Shown here one piece after another: positions 12,560 through 51,817 of a DNA stretch of 64,000 nucleotides. Under the pieces are notes generated by a model. The model did no database searches and had not been told where the DNA came from. It saw nothing but the letters and a program-made list of their open reading frames with translations. The stretch lies in the IMG/VR virus record IMGVR_UViG_3300033141_004289, positions 1 through 64,000 of that record; one strand, given 5' to 3'. The position numbers and the translations under genes are program-made. Origin of the DNA: a virus. Each line of letters begins with the position of its first letter. The stretch's first letter is position 1.

Positions 12560-12997
12560 ATGGAAGATAATATTAGTGCAGTTAGAAAAATACATTTTTG
12601 TTACGGGCACAGAGTGATGAATCATGAGTCAAAATGTGCTACTGCACATGGACATAATGGTGTGCTGTGGATATATGCAAGGCCTAAAAAGAATTTAGAT
12701 TCATTAGGTAGGGTAGTTGATTTTTCTGTATTAAAGGAAGAGGTCGGTGGTTGGGTAGATGAATATTGGGACCACAATTTCTTAGTAAACAATAAAGATA
12801 TTGAAGTAGTTAAGGGCTTGGCGGCAATGCCTAGAAGAAAAGAACCGTTTCTTTGCGATTTTAATCCTACAGCAGAAAATATGGCTAATTACTTATTAAA
12901 GAAAATTTGTCCTGATCTTATGCAAGATTATGATATCGAAGTACATAAGATTATAATGTATGAAACTGAGAATTGTTATGTAGAGGTGACATTATGA
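12560..12997 (+). CDS. queD: QueD, 6-carboxy-tetrahydropterin synthase
   Basis: 145 residues, AAGGAAGG leader. Converts dihydroneopterin triphosphate to 6-carboxytetrahydropterin, second step to preQ0. Zinc ligands and catalytic residues of the PTPS/QueD fold are visible: H in CYGHRV (about 17), C-x3-H-x-H in CATAHGH (about 28-33), DFSVLK, DHNFLV, PTAENMA and an E-T-E-N-C-Y-V C-terminus. Works with FolE (31323), QueE (29592) and QueC (25759) encoded in the same window but in separate places. Overlaps the next gene by ATGA. In a phage this points to a modified DNA base or to host tRNA queuosine; the DpdA-like genes favour DNA. Confidence 0.93.
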   Translation: MEDNISAVRKIHFCYGHRVMNHESKCATAHGHNGVLWIYARPKKNLDSLGRVVDFSVLKEEVGGWVDEYWDHNFLVNNKDIEVVKGLAAMPRRKEPFLCDFNPTAENMANYLLKKICPDLMQDYDIEVHKIIMYETENCYVEVTL

Positions 12998-14192: not shown

Positions 14193-14804
14193 ATGATTAA
14201 AACAGTAATTCAATGGACAGATGTACATGTTGGAGCACCCCATCAATTAGAACATAATATTCAAAAAATTCTAGAGGATTTTGAAACTCATCAACATGAC
14301 CCAGAAGTTATTGTTATCGGCACAGGTGACATAATTGATAATAAAAATGTTAAAAGATCAAAAATGCCATTCTACGCTAGAATGCGAAATGAACTTAAAA
14401 GAATAATGGGTAAGTTCTATAAATTTGGAAACCACGAATGTGAAGTTGACCCAGATGGGTATATATCAATTGAAGAAGATATTATGTGGATGCATTATCA
14501 TGTAAAAAATTGGTGTAATTCATTTATTAATGCTTGTAAGAAAGTAATTAGATGGGAGAATAAAAAAGAAGGTTTAAAGTGGTGGAAATATCTTGGCTAT
14601 AGATTTAAACATAGAGTTGTTTATCGTGGTAAAGAGTGGCATCCATCTGAACAAGAAATAACTGATTTAGTAGCATTTGCTAAAAAGAACAATTGTAAGT
14701 TCGTATTCCTTGGACATATCCATAAGTTCTATGATCAAATTCATGATGGGATAAGGATATGTAATGGTGGTAGAGGCCGAAAGGTTTATCACTTGGAAAG
14801 GTAG
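14193..14804 (+). CDS. Calcineurin-like metallophosphoesterase
   Basis: 203 residues. Metal-binding motifs of the superfamily in order: D-V-H (WTDVHVG, about residue 9), GTGD (about 46), GNHE (about 82) and GHIH near 178. Probably a nuclease or phosphatase on nucleic acid or nucleotides. Followed closely by a second phosphoesterase of the PPP branch. GGAG leader. Confidence 0.85.
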   Translation: MIKTVIQWTDVHVGAPHQLEHNIQKILEDFETHQHDPEVIVIGTGDIIDNKNVKRSKMPFYARMRNELKRIMGKFYKFGNHECEVDPDGYISIEEDIMWMHYHVKNWCNSFINACKKVIRWENKKEGLKWWKYLGYRFKHRVVYRGKEWHPSEQEITDLVAFAKKNNCKFVFLGHIHKFYDQIHDGIRICNGGRGRKVYHLER

Positions 14805-14808
14805 GGAT

Positions 14809-15573
14809 ATGGATTTAAATATAATTGGTGATGTTCATGGTAGATATGACGAACTTATTTTACTACTAGATAAAATGCCCACTGCTGTACCTGTTTCTGT
14901 AGGTGATATGATTGATAGGGGTAAAGGGTCATATAAAGTTTTAAATCATTTTCTAACCCATGGTATGGCCGTATTAGGCAACCATGAACACCTGTTCCTA
15001 GACTATTATTATAATAGAAATTATTACGATAGGTGTATGTGGTTTCTAAATGGTGGACTACAAACACTCGGTTCTTTTTTAGAATTATCTGATGAGAAAT
15101 ACGCCTGTCCTCCATTATTAAAATTAGTCTCATTAGTTGATAATTATGCTCATGGTATTTATGTTGATATAGCTGAGTTAAATAAGGCCTCTAATGAGGT
15201 AATAGATTTTGTTAAATCCGTAATTCCAGAATCTTATGCTATCTGGATAAATGAATTACCGCTAACTTTAGAATGGGATGACTTAATTATTACTCATGCT
15301 GCGATTAACCCAGCTATTCTGTTTAGTGAAACTAAAATAGTTGGGCCAAATGCTTCTTCTCCAAGATGTGATTCTTCTATTTTATGGAATCTTGGTTCAA
15401 CTAGAAGAAGAGAGGAATTTCAAGTTCACGGTCATTATGCTTATAGAAAAGCTCAAGAACTTAAAGACAGAAATGGTCTTTATGGAATGAATGTAGATAC
15501 TTCCAGAGGTAAAAAATTAACAGGTATCCATTGGCCGTCAAAGGTTATTTATGAACAAAATTTTTTAGATTAG
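14809..15573 (+). CDS. PPP-family serine/threonine protein phosphatase-like protein
   Basis: 254 residues from ATG 14809 (AAAGGTAGGG leader). Signature motifs GDVHGR (residues about 6-11), GDMIDRG (about 35-41), GNHEH (about 62) and a later HAAI and HGHYA match lambda-type PPP phosphatases, which act on phosphoproteins or on bis-nucleoside tetraphosphates (ApaH). It is close in length to lambda phosphatase (about 221). Substrate unknown; it may reset host kinase signalling. Confidence 0.87.
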   Translation: MDLNIIGDVHGRYDELILLLDKMPTAVPVSVGDMIDRGKGSYKVLNHFLTHGMAVLGNHEHLFLDYYYNRNYYDRCMWFLNGGLQTLGSFLELSDEKYACPPLLKLVSLVDNYAHGIYVDIAELNKASNEVIDFVKSVIPESYAIWINELPLTLEWDDLIITHAAINPAILFSETKIVGPNASSPRCDSSILWNLGSTRRREEFQVHGHYAYRKAQELKDRNGLYGMNVDTSRGKKLTGIHWPSKVIYEQNFLD

Positions 15574-20651: not shown

Positions 20652-21326
20652 ATGGACATTAAGAAAATAAAAACAGCACCTTATAATCCAAGGATTATGG
20701 GCAAAGATGCTAAAAAGGCATTAAAAAAATCAATTGAAGAGTTCAGTGATATCTCAGGTATAGTAGTAAATAGCCAAACAGGTAATGTCTTGGCCGGTAA
20801 TCATAGATGGAATCAATTAGTAGATAAATATGGAATAAATAAGTTACAATTATTTGATCTACAAGATAATGAGCATTTCTTACTTATGGATAGTAAAGGT
20901 GATTCTACAGGCTTTATTATTCGAGTAGTTGATTGGCCTATTGAAAAAGAAAAAGCAGCAAATATTACAGCTAATTCAAACTTAATTTCAGGTCAATTTA
21001 CATCAGGATTACAAGATGTGTTAGATGATCTAGCAAGTAGTTTGGATAACCCAACCTTTGAAGGATTAAGGTTAGATGAACTACAAATAGATTTAGATGG
21101 ACTAGATGATCTAACCTTTGATGAACCACATGCAGATATTGAAAAAGCCTCTCGAGAGAGTAATGGAGAATTATCTGAATCTGATAATCCAGAAGCAGAT
21201 AGTGTAAAAGAAGTTAGAGGAATTATAAAGGTTTCTGTACCATCCGATTTAAAAGATGAAGTTAGAGAAGATGTATTAGAATTTCTAGCAACTAAAGAAT
21301 ATTATGGATTAATTAATATTGTCTAA
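20652..21326 (+). CDS. ParB/Srx-fold protein 1, possible DpdB-like partner
   Basis: 224 residues; CAGGAG leader. N-terminal ParB/sulfiredoxin-like domain: YNPRIMG (about 11), GNVLAGNHRWNQL (about 46-58) and EKEKAANITANSN (about 100-112), the pattern of ParB-N proteins linked to DNA modification. The C-terminal third is acidic and linker-like. Closely related to the gene at 21826 and 1.2 kb upstream of two DpdA-like genes. As I recall, DpdB, the partner of bacterial DpdA, belongs to this superfamily, hence the guess. Alternative: a methyltransferase-associated ParB with another role. Confidence 0.75.
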   Translation: MDIKKIKTAPYNPRIMGKDAKKALKKSIEEFSDISGIVVNSQTGNVLAGNHRWNQLVDKYGINKLQLFDLQDNEHFLLMDSKGDSTGFIIRVVDWPIEKEKAANITANSNLISGQFTSGLQDVLDDLASSLDNPTFEGLRLDELQIDLDGLDDLTFDEPHADIEKASRESNGELSESDNPEADSVKEVRGIIKVSVPSDLKDEVREDVLEFLATKEYYGLINIV

Positions 21327-21334
21327 GGATAAAT

Positions 21335-21802
21335 GTGGATTCTAAATATATGAAGGCCTGCTTATGTGCCTATTTCAGATTTAGTAGAGGTGTTGGTCAA
21401 ATAGCCACTGAGGTTGGAGAATTTAACTCTGACTTCTTAGCTATTAGAAAAGGCAATATGTTCGAAATAGAAATTAAAACTTCTAAAGCAGACTTAAATG
21501 CTGACTTTAAAAAAAGAAAACATACTATCTATGAACAAGATAAATCAGTGTGGACTCCTAATTATTTTTATTTTGCTGTACCAAATAATCTAGTAGAATA
21601 TGCCTTTGCTAAGTGCGTTGATAATAATTATGGTGTTTTAGAGATACTAGAATCCGGCCCTTGGAAGGAAAGAGTAAGGGTTGTTAAAAGAGCTAAGAAG
21701 TTACATAATAGATTTGCACCTGAAAAAGTTAAGTACTATTTAATCAATCGTTTGTCCTCTGAAATGGCAAATTTAAGGATAAATGAGCAACTTAATAAGT
21801 AG
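21335..21802 (+). CDS. PD-(D/E)XK nuclease-like protein
   Basis: 155 residues, GTG start with AAGGA 5 bases upstream. The segment SDFLAIRKGNMFEIEIKTSK (residues 34-53) has the D-x(n)-E-x-K core of PD-(D/E)XK enzymes, followed by a basic DFKKRKH helix. Similar to the MmcB-like group of DNA repair nucleases. It lies between the two ParB-like genes, suggesting one functional locus. Catalysis is inferred. Confidence 0.7.
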   Translation: MDSKYMKACLCAYFRFSRGVGQIATEVGEFNSDFLAIRKGNMFEIEIKTSKADLNADFKKRKHTIYEQDKSVWTPNYFYFAVPNNLVEYAFAKCVDNNYGVLEILESGPWKERVRVVKRAKKLHNRFAPEKVKYYLINRLSSEMANLRINEQLNK

Positions 21803-21825
21803 TTAAAGAAAGAAAGGAATGACCG

Positions 21826-22509
21826 ATGGTAAAAACAAGAAGGCGAAAATCTGCCAAGAAAAAGACTATTAAAAAAAGTGTTACCCCTCAAGATTTAATC
21901 CCTGCAGATTATAATCCAAGATCAATGGACGATGATTCCAAGAAGGCCCTAAAAAAGTCTATGGATGAGTTCAATGATATTTCGGGGATAACTTGGAATA
22001 AGGTTACTGGAAATATTGTAACAGGTCATCACAGGTGGAATCATCTATGCGATATCTACGGCCTTGATAACCTAGTATTTAAGCATCTAACAGGCGATAA
22101 GCACTTAATCCTAGCTCAAGAAGGGGAAGATACAGGTTATATTCTAAGAGTAGTTGAGTGGGATAAGTCTAAAGAAAAAGCAGCGAATATCACTGCCAAT
22201 TCTCCTAAAGTTGAAGGTATCTTTACTGTCGATTTACAAGATGTTTTGGATGATTTGAAATTAGATATTAATAGCGATCTTTTTAGTGAACTTAGATTAG
22301 ATGAATTAACAGATTCTTTAAACTCACCAGATGACGAAGGTTCGTGGGAAACAGATATTGAAGCAGTAGAGAATGTTGACTCTAATTTAGACGGAATTAT
22401 TACTACTATTAAAGTAGAATGTGCTCAAGAAATGAGATCAGATGTTTTTAAGATATTAGATGAAGCTGTTACTGATGCCGGATTATCGGGTAAAGTAATG
22501 GTTAAATAA
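21826..22509 (+). CDS. ParB/Srx-fold protein 2, paralogue of the 20652 gene
   Basis: 227 residues. Basic N-terminus (RRRKSAKKKTIKK), then the same domain as its paralogue: YNPRSMD, GNIVTGHHRWNHL, EKAANITANSP and LQDVLDDL. The paralogues differ at the presumed active region (GNHRW versus GHHRW). TAATG overlap with the first DpdA-like gene means tight coupling, supporting a shared function in base insertion. Confidence 0.77.
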   Translation: MVKTRRRKSAKKKTIKKSVTPQDLIPADYNPRSMDDDSKKALKKSMDEFNDISGITWNKVTGNIVTGHHRWNHLCDIYGLDNLVFKHLTGDKHLILAQEGEDTGYILRVVEWDKSKEKAANITANSPKVEGIFTVDLQDVLDDLKLDINSDLFSELRLDELTDSLNSPDDEGSWETDIEAVENVDSNLDGIITTIKVECAQEMRSDVFKILDEAVTDAGLSGKVMVK

Positions 22510-23324
22510 TGGATTATAAACTAAATATCCTAATTGCTTATCCTTATATAAATGAATCTATTCTAAAAAAATTAGTTAAATATAGAAAAAGATTAAATTT
22601 TGTATTGGATTCAGGGGCCTTTACTGCTTGGAAATCCGGTAACCCAATTAAGTTAGATGATTATTGTAAATTTATTGAGTCATTACCCTTTGAGCCATGG
22701 CGGTATTTTACACTAGATAAAATTGGTGACCCCGAAGGTTCCTTTAAGAACTATGAGATAATGTTACAGAGAGGATTTAAACCTATTCCAATTTTTACTC
22801 GAGGTGAAAGTATTTCTATGATCGATGAGTATTATAAAACATCTGATGTTTTAGGACTCGGTGGGTTAGTAGGAACCAAAGGTAATAAAGGTTTTGTAAA
22901 AGGCGTAATGGATGTAGTAGGCAAACGTAAAGTTCACTGGTTAGGATTTACTAACAAAGATTTCGTTTCATATTACAAACCTTATATGTGTGATTGCTCA
23001 TCATGGTCCTATGTATCTCGATATGGAAATATGTTTATTTATGACTTTAAAGGTGGGTTTCATTCTATCTATAGAAAAGACTTCAATAAAAGACCACCAA
23101 AACATATTACTAATGCAATTATAAAAATAGGTTTTGACCCTAATGAGTTTGCATTAGAAGAATCTTGGAGGGGAGAATTTAATAAATCTATGACGCTGAC
23201 AGCTAAGAGTTATCTTCTAAAATCTATGGATGCACATAATATTTTTAAAACTAATATGTTTCTAGCATGCGGAGCTCATAATGATATTGAAATATTCATT
23301 AAGCTCTTAGACGAGATGAAATGA
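22509..23324 (+). CDS. dpdA: DpdA-like 7-deazaguanine DNA transglycosylase, copy 1
   Basis: 271 residues. TGT-like TIM barrel: DSGAFTAWKSG (Asp34, corresponding to the general acid/base DSGG motif of TGT), LGGLVGTKG near 118 (cf. GGLAVGE), VHWLGFTN near 142, and CDCSS with Asp162 at the position expected for the catalytic nucleophile. It lacks the TGT zinc motif CxCxxC. DpdA enzymes exchange guanine in DNA for preQ0. The presence of folE, queD, queE and queC supports this rather than a tRNA role. The next gene is a close paralogue, overlapping by 4 bases. Confidence 0.83.
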   Translation: MDYKLNILIAYPYINESILKKLVKYRKRLNFVLDSGAFTAWKSGNPIKLDDYCKFIESLPFEPWRYFTLDKIGDPEGSFKNYEIMLQRGFKPIPIFTRGESISMIDEYYKTSDVLGLGGLVGTKGNKGFVKGVMDVVGKRKVHWLGFTNKDFVSYYKPYMCDCSSWSYVSRYGNMFIYDFKGGFHSIYRKDFNKRPPKHITNAIIKIGFDPNEFALEESWRGEFNKSMTLTAKSYLLKSMDAHNIFKTNMFLACGAHNDIEIFIKLLDEMK

Positions 23325-24157
23325 AAAAGTTAAATCTATTAGTAGCTTATCCCTATATGGAAGTTCCAGAAGTTATCGATTATTTAGTTGCAAATCAAGA
23401 TAGTATTAGATTTCTATTAGACTCAGGTGCTTTTACAGCTTGGAAATCAGGCAATTCAATTAAAGTAGATGACTATTGTAAATTTATAGAAAATCTACCC
23501 TTTGAACCTTGGAGATATTTTACATTAGACGAAATAGGCGATCCAGAAGGTTCTTTTAAAAATTATGAGATAATGCTTAAAAGAGGATTTAACCCTATCC
23601 CTATTTTTACAAGAGGCGAAGATATTTCGATGGTAGAAGAATATTATAAGACTTCTGAGGTCTTAGGAATTGGTGGACTAGTTGGGACCAAAGGCAATAA
23701 AGGTTTTGTAAAAGGGATTATGGAAGTAGTAAAGGGCCGTAAAGTGCATTGGTTAGGGTTCACTAACAAGGAATTTATTAAATATTATAGGCCCTATTCT
23801 TGTGACAGTTCAGCTATGAAAACAGCAGAACGATTTGCTACCTTAGAAATTTTTGATGAAAAAACAGGCCTTTGGTATAAGATGAGTAAGTCAGATTTTG
23901 CTAAAAGACCTTCTAAGAAGATACTCGATTTAATCAATACTTATAATATGAATCCAAGGGATTTCGCATTAGAAGAGAAATGGAAAGGTGGTTATTCTGT
24001 TAGCTCCTATTTATCTTATAAAAGTCATATTCGTGCTTCGCTGCGGTATCACGAGAAACTAAATACTAAGTATTTCTTGGCCGCCATAGCTCATGCCCCA
24101 GTTGTTAGTATAGAAAAATTAATATCCACATATGAAGAAGAGTTAAATCGGTTATAA
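23321..24157 (+). CDS. dpdA: DpdA-like 7-deazaguanine DNA transglycosylase, copy 2
   Basis: 278 residues. Aligns without gaps to copy 1 over at least the first 160 residues, with the same DSGAFTAWKSG (Asp34), GGLVGTKGNKGFVKG and CDSS (Asp162) motifs. The two diverge after the nucleophile (SSWSYVSRYG versus SSAMKTAERF), which is where substrate or DNA contacts could differ. Tandem duplication is clear; whether both are active, or have split motif specificity, is open. Confidence 0.83.
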   Translation: MKKLNLLVAYPYMEVPEVIDYLVANQDSIRFLLDSGAFTAWKSGNSIKVDDYCKFIENLPFEPWRYFTLDEIGDPEGSFKNYEIMLKRGFNPIPIFTRGEDISMVEEYYKTSEVLGIGGLVGTKGNKGFVKGIMEVVKGRKVHWLGFTNKEFIKYYRPYSCDSSAMKTAERFATLEIFDEKTGLWYKMSKSDFAKRPSKKILDLINTYNMNPRDFALEEKWKGGYSVSSYLSYKSHIRASLRYHEKLNTKYFLAAIAHAPVVSIEKLISTYEEELNRL

Positions 24158-25758: not shown

Positions 25759-26496
25759 ATGAAAAATGGAAAAGCTGTTATTATTTTATCTGGGGGTATG
25801 GATTCCACTGTAGCCCTTTATTTAGCTGTAAGAGATTTTGGTGCTGAAAACATTAAGGCAGTCACCTTTGATTATCAGTCAAAACATAATGAGCAAGAGT
25901 ATTTAAGAGCAAAGAAATCTTGTGAAAAGTTAGGTGTAGAACATTGTCTAATTGACCTCTCTTCTATGGCAAGTCACTTTAACTCAAATCTCTTAAAATC
26001 AGGCGGTGAGATACCCGAAGGGCATTATGCTGAGTCAACTATGAAACAAACCGTTGTACCCTTTAGAAATGGCATTATGCTCTCCATAGCCTGTGGTATT
26101 GCTGAGTCTATGAATGCTAAAAGTGTTATTATTGGAAACCATGCGGGTGACCACCAGATTTACCCAGATTGTAGGGCCACCTTTATTTCAGCTATGAATG
26201 AGGCTATGGCATATGGGACTTATATTAATGTAAATATCCTCTCCCCTTTTTGTTCAAAAACTAAAACAGATATTGCTATTTTGGGTGAGGATTTAGGTGT
26301 CGATTGGGCAAATACTTATAGCTGTTATAAAGGCGGTGAAGAAGAGTGTGGCCTCTGCTCGACTTGCTATGAGGCAAAATTAAGTCTTTATGAAGCGGGT
26401 GTTAGTGAAATTCTATATATGGGTAAATATAAAGATAAGACACCGATTTTGGAGTTAAAGACAAAATATGAGGAAAGATTAGTAGATGAATCATAA
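25759..26496 (+). CDS. queC: QueC, 7-cyano-7-deazaguanine (preQ0) synthase
   Basis: 245 residues; TAGGAGGAAT leader. ATP-pyrophosphatase P-loop LSGGMDSTVALYL (residues 10-22), the PFRNGIMLSIA motif near 96, and the C-terminal zinc site SCYKGGEEECGLCSTC. Converts 7-carboxy-7-deazaguanine to preQ0 with ATP and ammonia. It is not fused to a GAT (glutamine amidotransferase) domain as in some phage QueC proteins. An 11-bp inverted repeat follows its stop. Confidence 0.95.
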   Translation: MKNGKAVIILSGGMDSTVALYLAVRDFGAENIKAVTFDYQSKHNEQEYLRAKKSCEKLGVEHCLIDLSSMASHFNSNLLKSGGEIPEGHYAESTMKQTVVPFRNGIMLSIACGIAESMNAKSVIIGNHAGDHQIYPDCRATFISAMNEAMAYGTYINVNILSPFCSKTKTDIAILGEDLGVDWANTYSCYKGGEEECGLCSTCYEAKLSLYEAGVSEILYMGKYKDKTPILELKTKYEERLVDES

Positions 26497-27181: not shown

Positions 27182-27225
27182 AATTAAATAAGTTCTTATT
27201 ACTAATATTTGCCAAGGATGTGCGA

Positions 27226-28647
27226 ATGAGTAAAAGCGAGAAGCTGTTAGGCCGCAAACCAAAAAACAGCTCCCCTACAAGAAAACAGTTAATTAAATCA
27301 TACATTGATCTTAAAAGAAAAGAAAAAGATCAAACCATTTCTATCTTCCGTGACGATTTTGTGCGGTGTTCCCCATTTAGCAAACGACTAATTGTAAAAC
27401 TATTTGGGTCATGGGGCAGCTTTAGAAATGAGGCTGAAGAAGAGTGCTACAAAAAATTGCCTAAAAAAGCTAGGGCCCTCTTATCTGAAAGGTCAAAAAA
27501 GTTCGATGAGAATGCTACTAAAGATAGTTGTATTGATAATCTAAGATTAGTTCAAGAAGAGAATCCCACCTCAGATATATCTAGAAATTTTTATAGAGAA
27601 ATAGGTAAATATTCCGACAGTACTTGGAGTAGGTTTTTTGGAACCTTCCAAGAATTTAGAAGACAAGCTGGAATTGAATTAACCAGACACCAACATAAAT
27701 TGGAAAGGGAGGTTGCAAAACATGCGTCATATGATAACTTGCGAGAATTTTTCAGAACTGAGGTGCTTCCTTTTCATAACAAATTTGATAAATTTAATAG
27801 TAATAATAATCGCTATAAAACAATTTTAGTTGGGTCAGACTTTCATGATGTTGACTGTGACGAGTTTGTGCTATCTGTTTTTATTGATACGGCAAGGAGA
27901 TTACAACCTGACGTAATTGTTTTAAACGGTGATTTATTCGATCTTTACGACTGTTCTAAATATTCTAAGGACTTGCGACAATTAAAAATAGTTGAAAGGT
28001 TTGATTTTGTTAAACGGAATATTTTTAAACCATTAAGGGAGTTATGCCCCAATACACAGATTGATTTTATACTTGGTAACCATGAATGGCGTTTATTAAA
28101 TTTACTTTCGGATAAAACACCAAATTTAAAAGTAATCTTAGCAGATGTGATGGGCCTATCTTTAGCAGATGTGTTCGGTTTAGACGAGTTTCAAATAAAT
28201 ATGGTATGTAAATTAGACCTGACTGCCTTTACAAAAACAGACATGAAGAATGAATTGCGCCAAAACTATCGTGTTTATTACGACTGTTTTGTAGCTGGCC
28301 ATTTTAAAGATTTAGGTTATGGGATGTCAGGAACCAGTGGTCACTGTCATAGGCCCGCAACTATTACATTTACAAATTTAATTATGGGTAAGTGTTCATG
28401 GGTTGAAACGGGCTGTATGTGTATAACAGATGCCGAGTATGTCCCCCATCGCAGTAAATGGACAAATTCATTTTTAATTGCACATATTGATGCGGCTTGT
28501 AAAAGTGTCTCTCCTGAACATATAATAGTTCCATACGATAACGTAGTTATTCATGGGGTTAGGTATGAAAGAGAAGGCGATAGCGCACAATTCGAAAGAT
28601 ATAACGGGAAAAAGGTTTGGTTACCTGACGGTATTAAAAAGAGCTGA
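27226..28647 (+). CDS. Calcineurin-like phosphoesterase with N-terminal homing-endonuclease-type repeats
   Basis: 473 residues from ATG 27226 (AAGGA 8 bases upstream; an in-frame GTG at 27220 is less likely). Residues about 15-150 contain two or three repeats of the kind found beside HNH homing endonucleases (a helix, then F-G-S/T-[WF]-x2-F-R: FGSWGSFRNEA and FGTFQEFRRQAG), thought to bind DNA. Residues about 200-420 form a metallophosphoesterase: GSDFHD, LNGDLFD, GNHEW, and a final G-H-C-H. The combination suggests a DNA-targeted nuclease or a phosphatase brought to DNA. Its 3' end is overlapped by an HNH endonuclease gene. Confidence 0.78.
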   Translation: MSKSEKLLGRKPKNSSPTRKQLIKSYIDLKRKEKDQTISIFRDDFVRCSPFSKRLIVKLFGSWGSFRNEAEEECYKKLPKKARALLSERSKKFDENATKDSCIDNLRLVQEENPTSDISRNFYREIGKYSDSTWSRFFGTFQEFRRQAGIELTRHQHKLEREVAKHASYDNLREFFRTEVLPFHNKFDKFNSNNNRYKTILVGSDFHDVDCDEFVLSVFIDTARRLQPDVIVLNGDLFDLYDCSKYSKDLRQLKIVERFDFVKRNIFKPLRELCPNTQIDFILGNHEWRLLNLLSDKTPNLKVILADVMGLSLADVFGLDEFQINMVCKLDLTAFTKTDMKNELRQNYRVYYDCFVAGHFKDLGYGMSGTSGHCHRPATITFTNLIMGKCSWVETGCMCITDAEYVPHRSKWTNSFLIAHIDAACKSVSPEHIIVPYDNVVIHGVRYEREGDSAQFERYNGKKVWLPDGIKKS

Positions 28648-29591: not shown

Positions 29592-30320
29592 ATGTTAATT
29601 TTAGCACCTAGTGAGCCAACCTTTTACACCCTACAAGGAGAAGGTAAATATATTGGATACCCATCTGTATTTATTCGATTATCCAGATGTAATTTAAGGT
29701 GTATGTGGCAAAATGCTAATGGTACATTTACTAAATGCGATACACCGCACACATCATTTGAACCTGAAATTGATGAAGTGAAGATAAGTAAATTAGTTGA
29801 AACGATTTGTAATTATGACACTGAGCATATTGTTATAAGTGGTGGGGAACCATTCTTTCAAAAAAAGGTAACAATATTAATCCACGAATTAGTTAAGTAT
29901 GGGAAGTTTGTAACAGTTGAAACTAATGGTACAATCTATCACGAGAATGAGGCCCAATTTATTAGTCTATCACCTAAACTCTCGACCAGTTCAGGCCATC
30001 CAACTTATGGAAAAATGCACGATCTACATAGAATAAATTATAGCGCATTATCTAATTTTATTACTAAATCAAAGGATTTCCAGTTCAAATTTGTAGTCAA
30101 TACCGAAGATGATATTAAAGAAATTCTAGAAATTAAAAGAGTTCTATTTGAAAGAACAACTATTGATATAAATGATTATATTTGGCTTATGCCTCAAGGA
30201 ATTGCAGAATACCAATTTGATGGTAGACTTAAATGGTTGGCCGAAATTTGTAAACAATATAAGTGGAAATTAACTGACCGCTTTCATATTAGATTATTTG
30301 GAAGTGGAGTTGGAGTATAA
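29592..30320 (+). CDS. queE: QueE, 7-carboxy-7-deazaguanine synthase
   Basis: 242 residues; AAAGGAAAG leader. Radical SAM enzyme: FYTLQGEGKYIGYPSVFIRLS precursor motif, cluster cysteines in RCNLRCMWQNANGTFTKCDT, ISGGEPFFQ (about residue 96), TNGT and a C-terminal FHIRLFG. The second and third cysteines are separated by an insertion (C-x3-C-x10-C), a spacing unlike CxxxCxxC. Ring contraction of 6-carboxytetrahydropterin to 7-carboxy-7-deazaguanine; third step of preQ0 synthesis. Confidence 0.93.
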   Translation: MLILAPSEPTFYTLQGEGKYIGYPSVFIRLSRCNLRCMWQNANGTFTKCDTPHTSFEPEIDEVKISKLVETICNYDTEHIVISGGEPFFQKKVTILIHELVKYGKFVTVETNGTIYHENEAQFISLSPKLSTSSGHPTYGKMHDLHRINYSALSNFITKSKDFQFKFVVNTEDDIKEILEIKRVLFERTTIDINDYIWLMPQGIAEYQFDGRLKWLAEICKQYKWKLTDRFHIRLFGSGVGV

Positions 30321-31322: not shown

Positions 31323-31949
31323 ATGTCAAATTTTCCAGAAACACCAATAAAAAAGAACGGTCTATCAAGGCTTGAAAAGAAGTGTTTAATTGAGCAACAC
31401 TTTAAAGCAATAATGGAAACATTAGAACTTGATCTATCTGATGACTCACTGAAAGATACCCCAAAGAGGGTAGCTAAAATGTATGTAGATGAAATATACA
31501 AAGGGTTATTAGAAGAGAATTTTCCTAAGATAACCTGTGTAGATAATAAGTTTGGTAGTCAAATGGTGACTATGGGCGACATAACTTTAAATTCCAGTTG
31601 TGAGCATCATTTTGTAACCATTTGTGGGTACGCCCATATTAGCTATATTCCAAATGAAAAAGTAATTGGATTATCAAAATTAAATAGATTGGTTGATTAT
31701 TATGGTAGTCGTCCACAGGTTCAAGAACGATTAACAGAACAAATACAGAAAAAGATATGTGAATTATTGGATACTGAAGATGTTGCTGTTACAATTGATG
31801 GAGTACATTTTTGTGTTAGAGCAAGAGGAATTAGAGATAGTAGTTCTGTAACTAGAACAAGCTCACTAGGTGGAACATTTATGAGTGTTGAAACTTGTAG
31901 GGCAGAATACTTTAATAATATACCCAAATTAGCAGATTTTAAATTATAA
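31323..31949 (+). CDS. folE: FolE, GTP cyclohydrolase I
   Basis: 208 residues; AAGGAT leader. Makes dihydroneopterin triphosphate from GTP, first step to preQ0. Conserved core: DTPKRVAKMY (about residue 42), SSCEHHFVTICGYAHISYIP with Zn ligands Cys and His, GLSKLNRLVDYYGSRPQVQERL, and C-terminal VHFCVRARGI then SSSVTRTSSLGG. Typical length for the bacterial enzyme. Next to queE and two set members. Confidence 0.95.
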   Translation: MSNFPETPIKKNGLSRLEKKCLIEQHFKAIMETLELDLSDDSLKDTPKRVAKMYVDEIYKGLLEENFPKITCVDNKFGSQMVTMGDITLNSSCEHHFVTICGYAHISYIPNEKVIGLSKLNRLVDYYGSRPQVQERLTEQIQKKICELLDTEDVAVTIDGVHFCVRARGIRDSSSVTRTSSLGGTFMSVETCRAEYFNNIPKLADFKL

Positions 31950-42223: not shown

Positions 42224-42943
42224 ATGAAATTTAATACAACTTTAGATGCACAAACATTTTTAACTGAGGTTAGAGAGTTCTCTAAGATTAAAGATGCTGA
42301 TGAGAAGTATGAGCCAACTAATGAGGAAGTTCAATCATTTTTAAAGGCCCGCACACCGTTAGTTAAAAAATTAAAAAATAATAGAAAATCATCTGCTCAA
42401 AAAGCAAATTGGCGACAAAATAGATATAAGATGATGAAAGGTATTAAGGCCTTCCATAAGTCTGTTAAAGGGAAGAGATTTCATAGAAAATTAGGTACTT
42501 TTTTAGCCACTAGATTATTTCGTGCTAAAACAAGTGAAAGTGGCTTTTCAATGTTATTATCAAAGCAGGGTTATTTGAAAGGACTTAATTCAGCAAAACA
42601 GCATTTATTGGTTGAACTCGAGTATTTTCATCAATTACAAGAACAGGTAGAATTAGAAGAGTTTATTACTGATTATGCCTATCCTTATTTTAGATCGATA
42701 GAAGAAAAAGTTATAATAGACGAAGATTTGACAGATGATGAATTAGTGTTCTTGTTTGATTTAGTTGAGGCCAATGCTTTGATAACTTCATTTTCTGATA
42801 AAACAGGGTTAACATTTGCACAAATCGAGAAAATGTGGAATGCTATAAGGAATGATTTAAATAAAGAAGGGATTACAGATGATGATGAAAAATTTTATCC
42901 CTTTTTGGTTACTCGTTTAAAAAAACAGATAGGAATTAAATAG
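42224..42943 (+). CDS. Putative prohead core protein
   Basis: 239 residues; AAGGAC leader. N-terminus acidic, a very basic segment at residues about 55-105 (RKSSAQKANWRQNRYKMMKG), and an acidic helical C-terminus. Position just upstream of the protease suggests a scaffold-associated head protein. Its last base overlaps the GTG start of the protease. Confidence 0.6.
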   Translation: MKFNTTLDAQTFLTEVREFSKIKDADEKYEPTNEEVQSFLKARTPLVKKLKNNRKSSAQKANWRQNRYKMMKGIKAFHKSVKGKRFHRKLGTFLATRLFRAKTSESGFSMLLSKQGYLKGLNSAKQHLLVELEYFHQLQEQVELEEFITDYAYPYFRSIEEKVIIDEDLTDDELVFLFDLVEANALITSFSDKTGLTFAQIEKMWNAIRNDLNKEGITDDDEKFYPFLVTRLKKQIGIK

Positions 42944-50227: not shown

Positions 50228-51817
50228 ATGGGTGGAGCTGCTTCTGTAAGAATTAAGGAAGTTGACCTATCGACAAGAGTTGCCTCGTTTGAGGGTGTTT
50301 ACGGTGCAATCGTAATTCCCGCAACCAAAGGACAATCCGATAGGCCCTTTTTTGTTTCAAGCGATACACAGTTATTGAATACTGCAACCCCAGATGGAAC
50401 AGTGGCCGTTGGTTATGATCTATCTTATTTTTCTGCTCTGGCATACTTAGAGCGAGCTAATAAATTGTGGGTTCAGAGAGTTATTAACGGGGCATTTTAT
50501 GCCGGTCTACTGGTTAAGGAAACTGCTAGTCTTGATCCAAATATTGGAATCACTGCTGGTTCTGATGTTTCTGACCCTACCGCATTTGTACTTGGTGCAG
50601 AAGATGCGCTTTTCATTTATTCTGCAAATGAAGGGACATGGGGAAATGATATTGGAATTAAGATTACAACAATTGATGATGATGAGGACTTAATTGAGCC
50701 AAATTCATTTTTAATTGAAGTTTTTAAATTTGCTAATCAAGTAACTCCTGTTGAATCCTTTTTAGTTTCACGAGTTCTTGGTCAAAAAGATGGCCGTGGT
50801 CTTAACATGTATGTCGAAGATGTTTTAGAAGGTTCTGAATATATCAGAGCTATTTCTAATCCAACTATTGCTGAAACTGTTTTACCAAAAACTCAAGCTG
50901 CTTATTTAGCAATGACAGATGGTGATGATGGTCTAGCAATAACTGATACAAACATGATTGCAGCTGCAAATAATTTTGCTAATAAAGCAGAAGTTTCAGT
51001 TACTATCTTAATGGACGGTGGTTATGCTGTTCCAGCATATCAGATTGCACTTGATACAATTGCTCAGAGTCGTCAAGATTGTGTTGCCATTCTTTCAGTT
51101 CCTTATGCTGATGAAGCTGGCTCAACATACATGGTCGACATTGTAGATTATAGAAAAACAGATTTGAATTTAAATAGTTCATACTCTGCTCTTTATACTC
51201 CTCACCTTCAAATCCAAGATCGTTTTAATGATAGATCAATTTGGATTGCACCAGATGGCCATGTAGCTGGAAGTATTTCATTTGCTTCTAATACATTTGA
51301 AATTTGGTTTCCAGCTGCTGGATTTAAGCGTGGTGTGTTAAATGTTCTTGATACAAAAAGAAGATTCTCAGATGGTGAGTTGGATGAACTTTATAATAAA
51401 GGGATAAACCCAATTCGATTCATTCCCGGAAAAGGGATTGTAGTTTGGGGCCAAAAAACATTATTGGCCAGAGCATCTGCTCTTGACCGATTAAATGTTA
51501 GACTTCTTCTAATTGTTATTGAACCAGCAATTAAAGAGCTTCTTGAAAACTTCTTGTTTGACCTTAATGATGCAAGTGTTAGATCAATTATTGAAACAAA
51601 GATTGAATCTTACCTTCAAACCATTCAGGCCAGAAAAGGTATTCAAGATTTTGATGTAGTCGCTGATGATACCAATAACTCGGATGCAGATATTGATGCC
51701 AATCGACTAAACGTAGATATTTTTATTAAGCCAACCAGATCAATTGAAGAAATACCAGTTAGAGTTGTAATAACTCCTTCAAATATTTCTTTTAGTGATG
51801 CTGCAGGCGCTATTTAA
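50228..51817 (+). CDS. Tail sheath protein (gp18-like)
   Basis: 529 residues; TGGAGG leader. The C-terminal sheath domain is clear: NPIRFIPGKGIVVWGQKTL (about residues 395-413), then NVRLLLIVIEPAIKELLENF and a final DIFIKPTRSIEEIPVRV strand pair. N-terminal part forms the strand-exchange arm with VRIKEVDLSTRV. Contracts during injection. CTT-rich codons suggest high expression. Confidence 0.92.
   Translation: MGGAASVRIKEVDLSTRVASFEGVYGAIVIPATKGQSDRPFFVSSDTQLLNTATPDGTVAVGYDLSYFSALAYLERANKLWVQRVINGAFYAGLLVKETASLDPNIGITAGSDVSDPTAFVLGAEDALFIYSANEGTWGNDIGIKITTIDDDEDLIEPNSFLIEVFKFANQVTPVESFLVSRVLGQKDGRGLNMYVEDVLEGSEYIRAISNPTIAETVLPKTQAAYLAMTDGDDGLAITDTNMIAAANNFANKAEVSVTILMDGGYAVPAYQIALDTIAQSRQDCVAILSVPYADEAGSTYMVDIVDYRKTDLNLNSSYSALYTPHLQIQDRFNDRSIWIAPDGHVAGSISFASNTFEIWFPAAGFKRGVLNVLDTKRRFSDGELDELYNKGINPIRFIPGKGIVVWGQKTLLARASALDRLNVRLLLIVIEPAIKELLENFLFDLNDASVRSIIETKIESYLQTIQARKGIQDFDVVADDTNNSDADIDANRLNVDIFIKPTRSIEEIPVRVVITPSNISFSDAAGAI

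Follow-up and report, generated by a model that had tools for sequence, protein, structure and literature searches.

How DpdA enzymes pick the guanines that they exchange is, to our knowledge, an open question. Enterobacteria phage 9g and phage CAjan (Queuovirinae) combine a DpdA-type DNA-guanine transglycosylase with a full gene set for the 7-deazaguanine preQ0; loci of the 9g type carry a single DpdA and, over the DNA inspected, no ParB. In Cellulophaga phage phi3:1 and the mycobacteriophages Bipper and CRB2, one DpdA lies near one ParB-domain gene and Que genes, and ORF1 of CRB2 has already been proposed as a DpdB homologue (PMC6392294), so the pairing of ParB with DpdA is not new. The bacterial Dpd system (DpdA-DpdB-DpdC) joins a DpdA resembling tRNA-guanine transglycosylase (TGT) to a partner of the ParB superfamily (PMC12839542), and extra copies of dpdB are common in bacterial islands (PMC11888242). 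Phage nt-1 provides another preQ0 insertion enzyme, DpdA2, which is without the conserved His and escapes detection when 9g DpdA serves as the query (PMC6884629). Here, a stretch of 64,000 nucleotides (the window) from the 104,850-base virus record IMGVR_UViG_3300033141_004289 was analysed, in which two ParB-fold genes and two dpdA genes lie together on the + strand. On the basis of sequence comparison, the two DpdAs would carry different target modules and insert preQ0 in two DNA contexts with ParB as a cofactor, a reading to which a probability of roughly 0.6 is assigned. The genes and modules concerned, in order, are as follows.

20652-21326, + strand: ParB-1, predicted ParB/Srx-fold protein, 224 amino acids; phrog_498/620 at E = 1e-15 to 1e-17, weak ParB_N match at E = 0.009, GNHR replacing the GERR box
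21335-21802, + strand: protein of 155 amino acids, GTG start; phrog_2776 (function unknown) at E = 4.8e-21, phrog_5429 'DNA repair protein' at E = 0.0015
21826-22509, + strand: ParB-2, predicted ParB/Srx-fold protein, 227 amino acids, from an AlphaFold2 model and Foldseek; adjoins and overlaps dpdA-a
22509-23324, + strand: DpdA-a, predicted DNA-guanine transglycosylase, 271 amino acids; phrog_887 at E = 4.6e-29; D34, D70, GG118-119, H143 and D162
22995-23321, + strand: second half of DpdA-a, a variable module (residues ~163-271) made up of the beta-7/beta-8 insert, beta-8 and the last helix
23321-24157, + strand: DpdA-b, predicted DNA-guanine transglycosylase, 278 amino acids; phrog_887 at E = 1.2e-29, 9g DpdA at E = 2e-18; catalytic residues as in DpdA-a
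23807-24154, + strand: second half of DpdA-b, a variable module; in the second-half tree it clusters with the relatives L015/L038/L046 (Shimodaira-Hasegawa-like approximate likelihood-ratio test 95)

An earlier note on this DNA had described two paralogous ParB-like genes followed by two paralogous TGT-like genes, almost contiguous. All four open reading frames (ORFs) lie where it placed them and both paralogies hold, with 45% identity between the ParBs (E = 3e-50) and 59% between the DpdAs (E = 7e-117). The contiguity holds from ParB-2 onward, where stop/start overlaps (TAATG and ATGA) link ParB-2 to DpdA-a and DpdA-a to DpdA-b, but the two ParB genes are separated by the 155-residue ORF, which the note did not mention. 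This intervening protein has no Pfam match, and its EIEIK motif makes a PD-(D/E)XK nuclease or MmcB-like protein possible. No second locus for such a DpdA or ParB was found elsewhere in the 104,850-base record.

The assignment of both TGT-like proteins as DpdA-type DNA-guanine transglycosylases is supported by a match to 9g DpdA, by residues invariant across the family, by the TGT (beta/alpha)8 fold of a structural model and by the full preQ0 gene set. Both match phrog_887, 'queuine tRNA-ribosyltransferase', at E-values of ~1e-29, and no model in Pfam or NCBIfam matches them. Residues D34, G36-F38, D70, G118-G119, H143, G146 and D162 are invariant in 55 relatives, and D34, D70, H143 and D162 are invariant also with 9g, CAjan, phi3:1, Bipper and a Vibrio phage. 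Conservation of Asp34 and Asp162, which the earlier note had singled out, is thereby borne out; from the DSGxF and nucleophile motifs, we take D34 to be the TGT general acid/base and D162 the nucleophile. All residues invariant against 9g and CAjan are retained in both window copies, which rules out a pair made of a catalytic enzyme and a pseudo-enzyme, and membership of DpdA2 is ruled out because His143 is invariant and 9g was found directly. The AlphaFold2 model of DpdA-a (predicted local distance difference test, pLDDT, 94.4) places D34, D70, H143 and D162 at barrel strands or immediately past them, with residues 164-248 as a long insert that separates strands seven and eight. The earlier note had named the TGT fold as a check on its proposal, and Foldseek returned the archaeosine TGT 1j2b as the sole match to this model below E = 0.001 (E = 3.7e-5), with a TM-score of only 0.44. 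DpdA-a has Cys at position 163 (22995-22997), just after the nucleophile, where more than 90% of relatives have Ser. Relatives are few in bacterial genomes (12 loci).

Across the family, identity over DpdA residues 1-150 is nearly uncoupled from identity over the half from ~160 onward. Spearman correlations of identities are 0.35-0.66 within the first half and 0.34 within the second, falling to 0.11-0.23 between halves, and the nearest neighbour agrees between the two halves in only 14 of 55 cases. Pairs that retain the same second half diverge evenly along their length (first/second half 0.95/0.93, 0.86/0.83 and 0.70/0.72), which argues that the second half is not merely a fast-evolving tail. 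Among the 41 pairs with first-half identity of at least 0.75, however, 24 have second halves as dissimilar as those of unrelated pairs (0.38 or less; unrelated pairs: median 0.28, 95th percentile 0.38), and in these 24 the identity breaks at residues 151-165. The near-identical operons of the relatives L008 and L023 illustrate the break most clearly, with protein identities of 0.94 for ParB, 0.95 for QueC and 0.91 for FolE against 0.49 for the second half of DpdA. Their DNA identity is 85-97% in ParB, 60-89% in the first half of dpdA and 44-57% over codons ~178-277, and is 91% again at the dpdA stop and 84-97% in QueC; L011 and L023 give the same profile. In approximately unbiased (AU) tests, the first-half clade of L017 was rejected by second-half data (p = 0.00015), and the remaining tests (L017 with L069, the L013/L021/L039 group and the window copies) were not significant. 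A free tree search missed a better tree for three groups, showing the quick trees to be weak, and weight was therefore put on the DNA breakpoints and the pair distributions. The second half of DpdA is demonstrably exchanged between phages like a cartridge, with flanking genes unchanged, and this exchangeable half is probably what recognizes the target.

The window copies differ along the same boundary. By block, DpdA-a and DpdA-b are 80-93% identical over residues 31-150 and 33-40% identical in later blocks, in agreement with the earlier note, which had placed their greatest difference after the nucleophile; by halves, identity is 0.77 and 0.35, the latter near the level of unrelated pairs. 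A recent duplication of the window dpdA is ruled out, as in the first half each copy is at least as close to the relative L002 (0.80) as to the other copy (0.77). Different specificity for the window pair, which the earlier note had raised, is inferred from how far the two copies have diverged in a module shown to be exchanged among relatives; the divergent, swappable half makes it the leading idea. A duplicated dpdA that raises dosage or drifts while serving a single motif would fit the AU tests, which are compatible with the window copies as sisters in both halves. It is nevertheless an unlikely account, given that the duplication is not recent and yet all catalytic residues have been kept, and that the second halves have fallen so close to the unrelated level.

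Doubling of dpdA is recurrent and not unique to this phage. Isolate phages have one DpdA place in each of 173 records and a single DpdA occurs in 43 of 44 relative records, but tandem dpdA genes are found in three further metagenomic phage contigs, L050 (in the order ParB-DpdA-DpdA-QueC-QueD-QueE-FolE), L169 and L177. First- and second-half identities of these tandem copies are 0.69/0.45, 0.46/0.34 and 0.43/0.35, respectively, the less divergent second half of L050 being a point in favour of redundancy. Active-site residues are retained in the L050 and L169 copies, and the catalytic Asp and His in those of L177. TGTs are dimers, and the eukaryotic TGT is a heterodimer with a non-catalytic partner, so the two DpdAs could be imagined as one heterodimeric enzyme of one specificity, with each ParB perhaps binding one subunit. 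The overlapping genes are likely to be co-translated and both products are single-domain proteins close in sequence, but both keep all the catalytic residues, unlike the non-catalytic eukaryotic partner, and the prevalence of single-DpdA relatives implies that one copy is normally enough; a heteromer is thus rather improbable. L167 has the order ParB-ParB-DpdA with one DpdA only. Across relatives, copy numbers of the two genes change independently of each other, evidence against a fixed pairing. Of the two DpdA/DpdB pairs proposed in the earlier note, the identity of the DpdAs and the presence of a ParB partner stand, whereas the pairing itself is not supported by these copy numbers, by the gene order ParB-(155 residues)-ParB-DpdA-DpdA or by the ParBs, in which no DndB domain was found.

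The window ParBs match phrog_498/620 (ParB-like) at E-values of 1e-15 to 1e-19. The AlphaFold2 model of ParB-2 (pLDDT 83.8) matches ParB-CDP 6sdk (E = 3.3e-5) and Noc in Foldseek, and the family profile matches ParB/Noc/Spo0J structures (E ~1e-13) followed by sulfiredoxin and free serine kinase. The GERR nucleotide box of canonical ParB is replaced by GNHR in ParB-1, by GHHR in ParB-2 and mostly by GHGR in relatives. No DndB family was found among Pfam matches of the window ParBs or 52 relatives, 40 of which match PF02195. Matching PF02195 and ParB-CTPase structures and not the DndB domain, the window ParBs would be at most DpdB-like in role.

A profile built from the window ParBs detected a ParB-fold gene as the immediate upstream neighbour of dpdA in 66 of the 68 relatives L002-L069; the two without it (L022 and L063) begin at a contig end, leaving 66 of 66 with upstream DNA. 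In a second, partly overlapping set, counted by hand, all DpdAs scoring above 200 bits have an upstream ParB except L150 (contig end), and an upstream ParB was seen in 3 of ~36 DpdAs scoring below 140 bits. ParB is thus supported as a regular partner of this DpdA clade that is rare in 9g-type phages. ParB-like genes are widespread in phages, and a search from the ParB side gave a DpdA neighbour in 0 of 33 ParB relatives, which together with the 9g-type loci would allow the window ParBs to stand beside dpdA by chance and to serve partition, packaging or as a nuclease. Such a chance association is very unlikely in view of the 66 of 66 linkage, of similar ParBs elsewhere that are fused to or adjoin an N6/N4 methylase, a Tet/JBP oxygenase or a radical S-adenosylmethionine (SAM) protein, and of the description of bacterial DpdB as a ParB-like ATPase (PMC12839542). 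Stand-alone ParB-fold genes lie beside the radical SAM protein in L089 (5980-8412; two ParBs) and beside the Tet/JBP oxygenase in L109 (1049-2549), and ParB seems to accompany DNA-modifying enzymes of phages quite generally; a ParB domain of unknown function has also been noted near phage CmoX enzymes (PMC12783734). In L012 (5443-6825), ParB and DpdA form one polypeptide of 461 residues, a natural fusion or a frameshift, to which no weight was given. Strict co-inheritance of ParB with the DpdA second half looked promising in L017 and L069 but was rejected as a weak trend with counter-examples.

The window carries all four enzymes for preQ0 synthesis, which lie on both sides of the dpdA genes.

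12560-12997, + strand: QueD; PF01242 at E = 1.3e-26, over cut-off, TIGR03367 at E = 1e-17
25759-26496, + strand: QueC (preQ0 synthase) without N-terminal Gat domain; PF06508 at E = 4.6e-57, TIGR00364 above cut-off
29592-30320, + strand: QueE (7-carboxy-7-deazaguanine synthase); phrog_2076 at E = 1.6e-46
31323-31949, + strand: FolE (GTP cyclohydrolase I); PF01227 at E = 1.4e-55, NCBIfam FolE above cut-off

The inserted base is likely to be preQ0 itself, since the record contains no QueF above cut-off (the weak match being FolE itself) and no PF03883 (DpdC), and since the alignment of QueC to phrog_1550 starts only at position 144, indicating that the Gat part is absent. Several 7-deazaguanines are known in phages (PMC6884629), and the two DpdAs might on that ground act on different bases or substrates, such as preQ0 and a derivative, or DNA and tRNA. 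This is highly implausible: D70 and GG118-119, which presumably bind the base, are common to both copies and lie in the near-identical half, and no QueF above cut-off, PF03883 or Gat domain was found to make a preQ0 derivative. Metallophosphoesterase-like genes lie near the Que genes at 14764-15573 (PF00149) and 27220-28647 (phrog_20266).

In the mechanism favoured here, FolE, QueD, QueE and QueC would make preQ0, and both DpdAs would swap guanine in phage DNA for it, with Asp162 as the nucleophile and Asp34 as the acid/base by analogy with TGT. The first ~150 residues would form the conserved catalytic part, and residues from ~160 to the end (the beta-7/beta-8 insert, beta-8 and the last helix) an exchangeable target-recognition module, such that a common catalytic part with unlike modules would modify G in two sequence contexts and give broader protection against restriction. 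The ParB-fold proteins of the same operon would act as DNA-bound, probably nucleotide-dependent cofactors. The broader proposal, of a dedicated, horizontally exchanged target-recognition module in the transglycosylases of this ParB-linked clade and of a phage that marks guanine in two contexts with two such enzymes, is finely balanced. Several observations weigh against two contexts read by swapped modules. For the window pair, the AU tests give no significant support for a swap: the second-half data are compatible with the copies as sisters (p = 0.50) and the first-half data with a grouping of DpdA-b and L015/L038/L046 (p = 0.13), so simple divergence after duplication is a possible explanation of the pair; the first half of DpdA in L008 and L023 is likewise somewhat diverged (0.77), and the variable half could bind a partner rather than DNA. 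On the side of ParB, 9g-type phages have none nearby, and the tie between ParB identity and the DpdA second half is only modest (partial r = 0.23, Mantel p = 0.003; for the first half, partial r = 0.12, p = 0.14).

The record belongs to a contractile-tail phage, with a tail sheath gene at 50228 and a head maturation protease at 42943. A terminase search for close whole-phage relatives gave only 5 distant matches, none with DpdA. At least 14 otherwise unlike ORFs begin with a shared tag of ~12-20 residues, MK[IL]xNEIxxLLxE or MKLAEKIL (starts at 12973, 24224, 24892, 25389, 26963, 31067, 31959, 40037, 40543, 41214, 47751, 48444, 53133 and 53457); some tags are preceded by a short upstream ORF extension, and three tagged ORFs lie between dpdA-b and queC. 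The tag resembles the capsid-targeting sequences of T4 (PMC9026906), and with a head maturation protease present, the tagged proteins may be packaged in the head and injected.

A pair with a common catalytic half and unlike second halves, together with operons that differ mainly there, offers a direct test of target choice, and the constant linkage provides one clean case for the ParB-fold proteins that accompany many DNA-modification enzymes of phages. New here are the constant upstream ParB in this DpdA clade, the modularity of DpdA and the recurrence of tandem dpdA. If the proposal is true, recombining such modules could direct 7-deazaguanine marks to motifs of choice in laboratory DNA.

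Among known systems, 9g and CAjan share with the window the invariant DSGA, D70, H143 and D162, and 9g DpdA is 32% identical over residues 5-199 (E = 2e-18), but the C-terminal parts of 9g-type DpdAs align poorly with the window DpdAs, and QueC of the JenP1/9g type is a longer Gat-QueC where that of the window is plain. The DpdAs of phi3:1 and Bipper/CRB2 are 25-27% identical to DpdA-a, and ParB of phi3:1 lies downstream of DpdA, unlike in the window. Bacterial Dpd differs in the DndB domain of its DpdB, which was not found in the window ParBs, and in having DpdC; no restriction genes were identified here. CAjan is reported, in the title of Kot 2020 (cited in PMC8306585), to carry one and the same modification at two distinct motifs, so the choice of motif is a genuine trait of systems of this kind. 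The nearest analogy is with the specificity subunits of restriction-modification systems, which likewise show a conserved core, a replaced specificity half, sharp boundaries and unchanged flanks; here, however, there is no methyltransferase and the exchange takes place inside a TIM-barrel transglycosylase. We know of no swappable recognition half in DpdA or TGT, and the window locus, if read correctly, would be the base-exchange counterpart of specificity-subunit switching.

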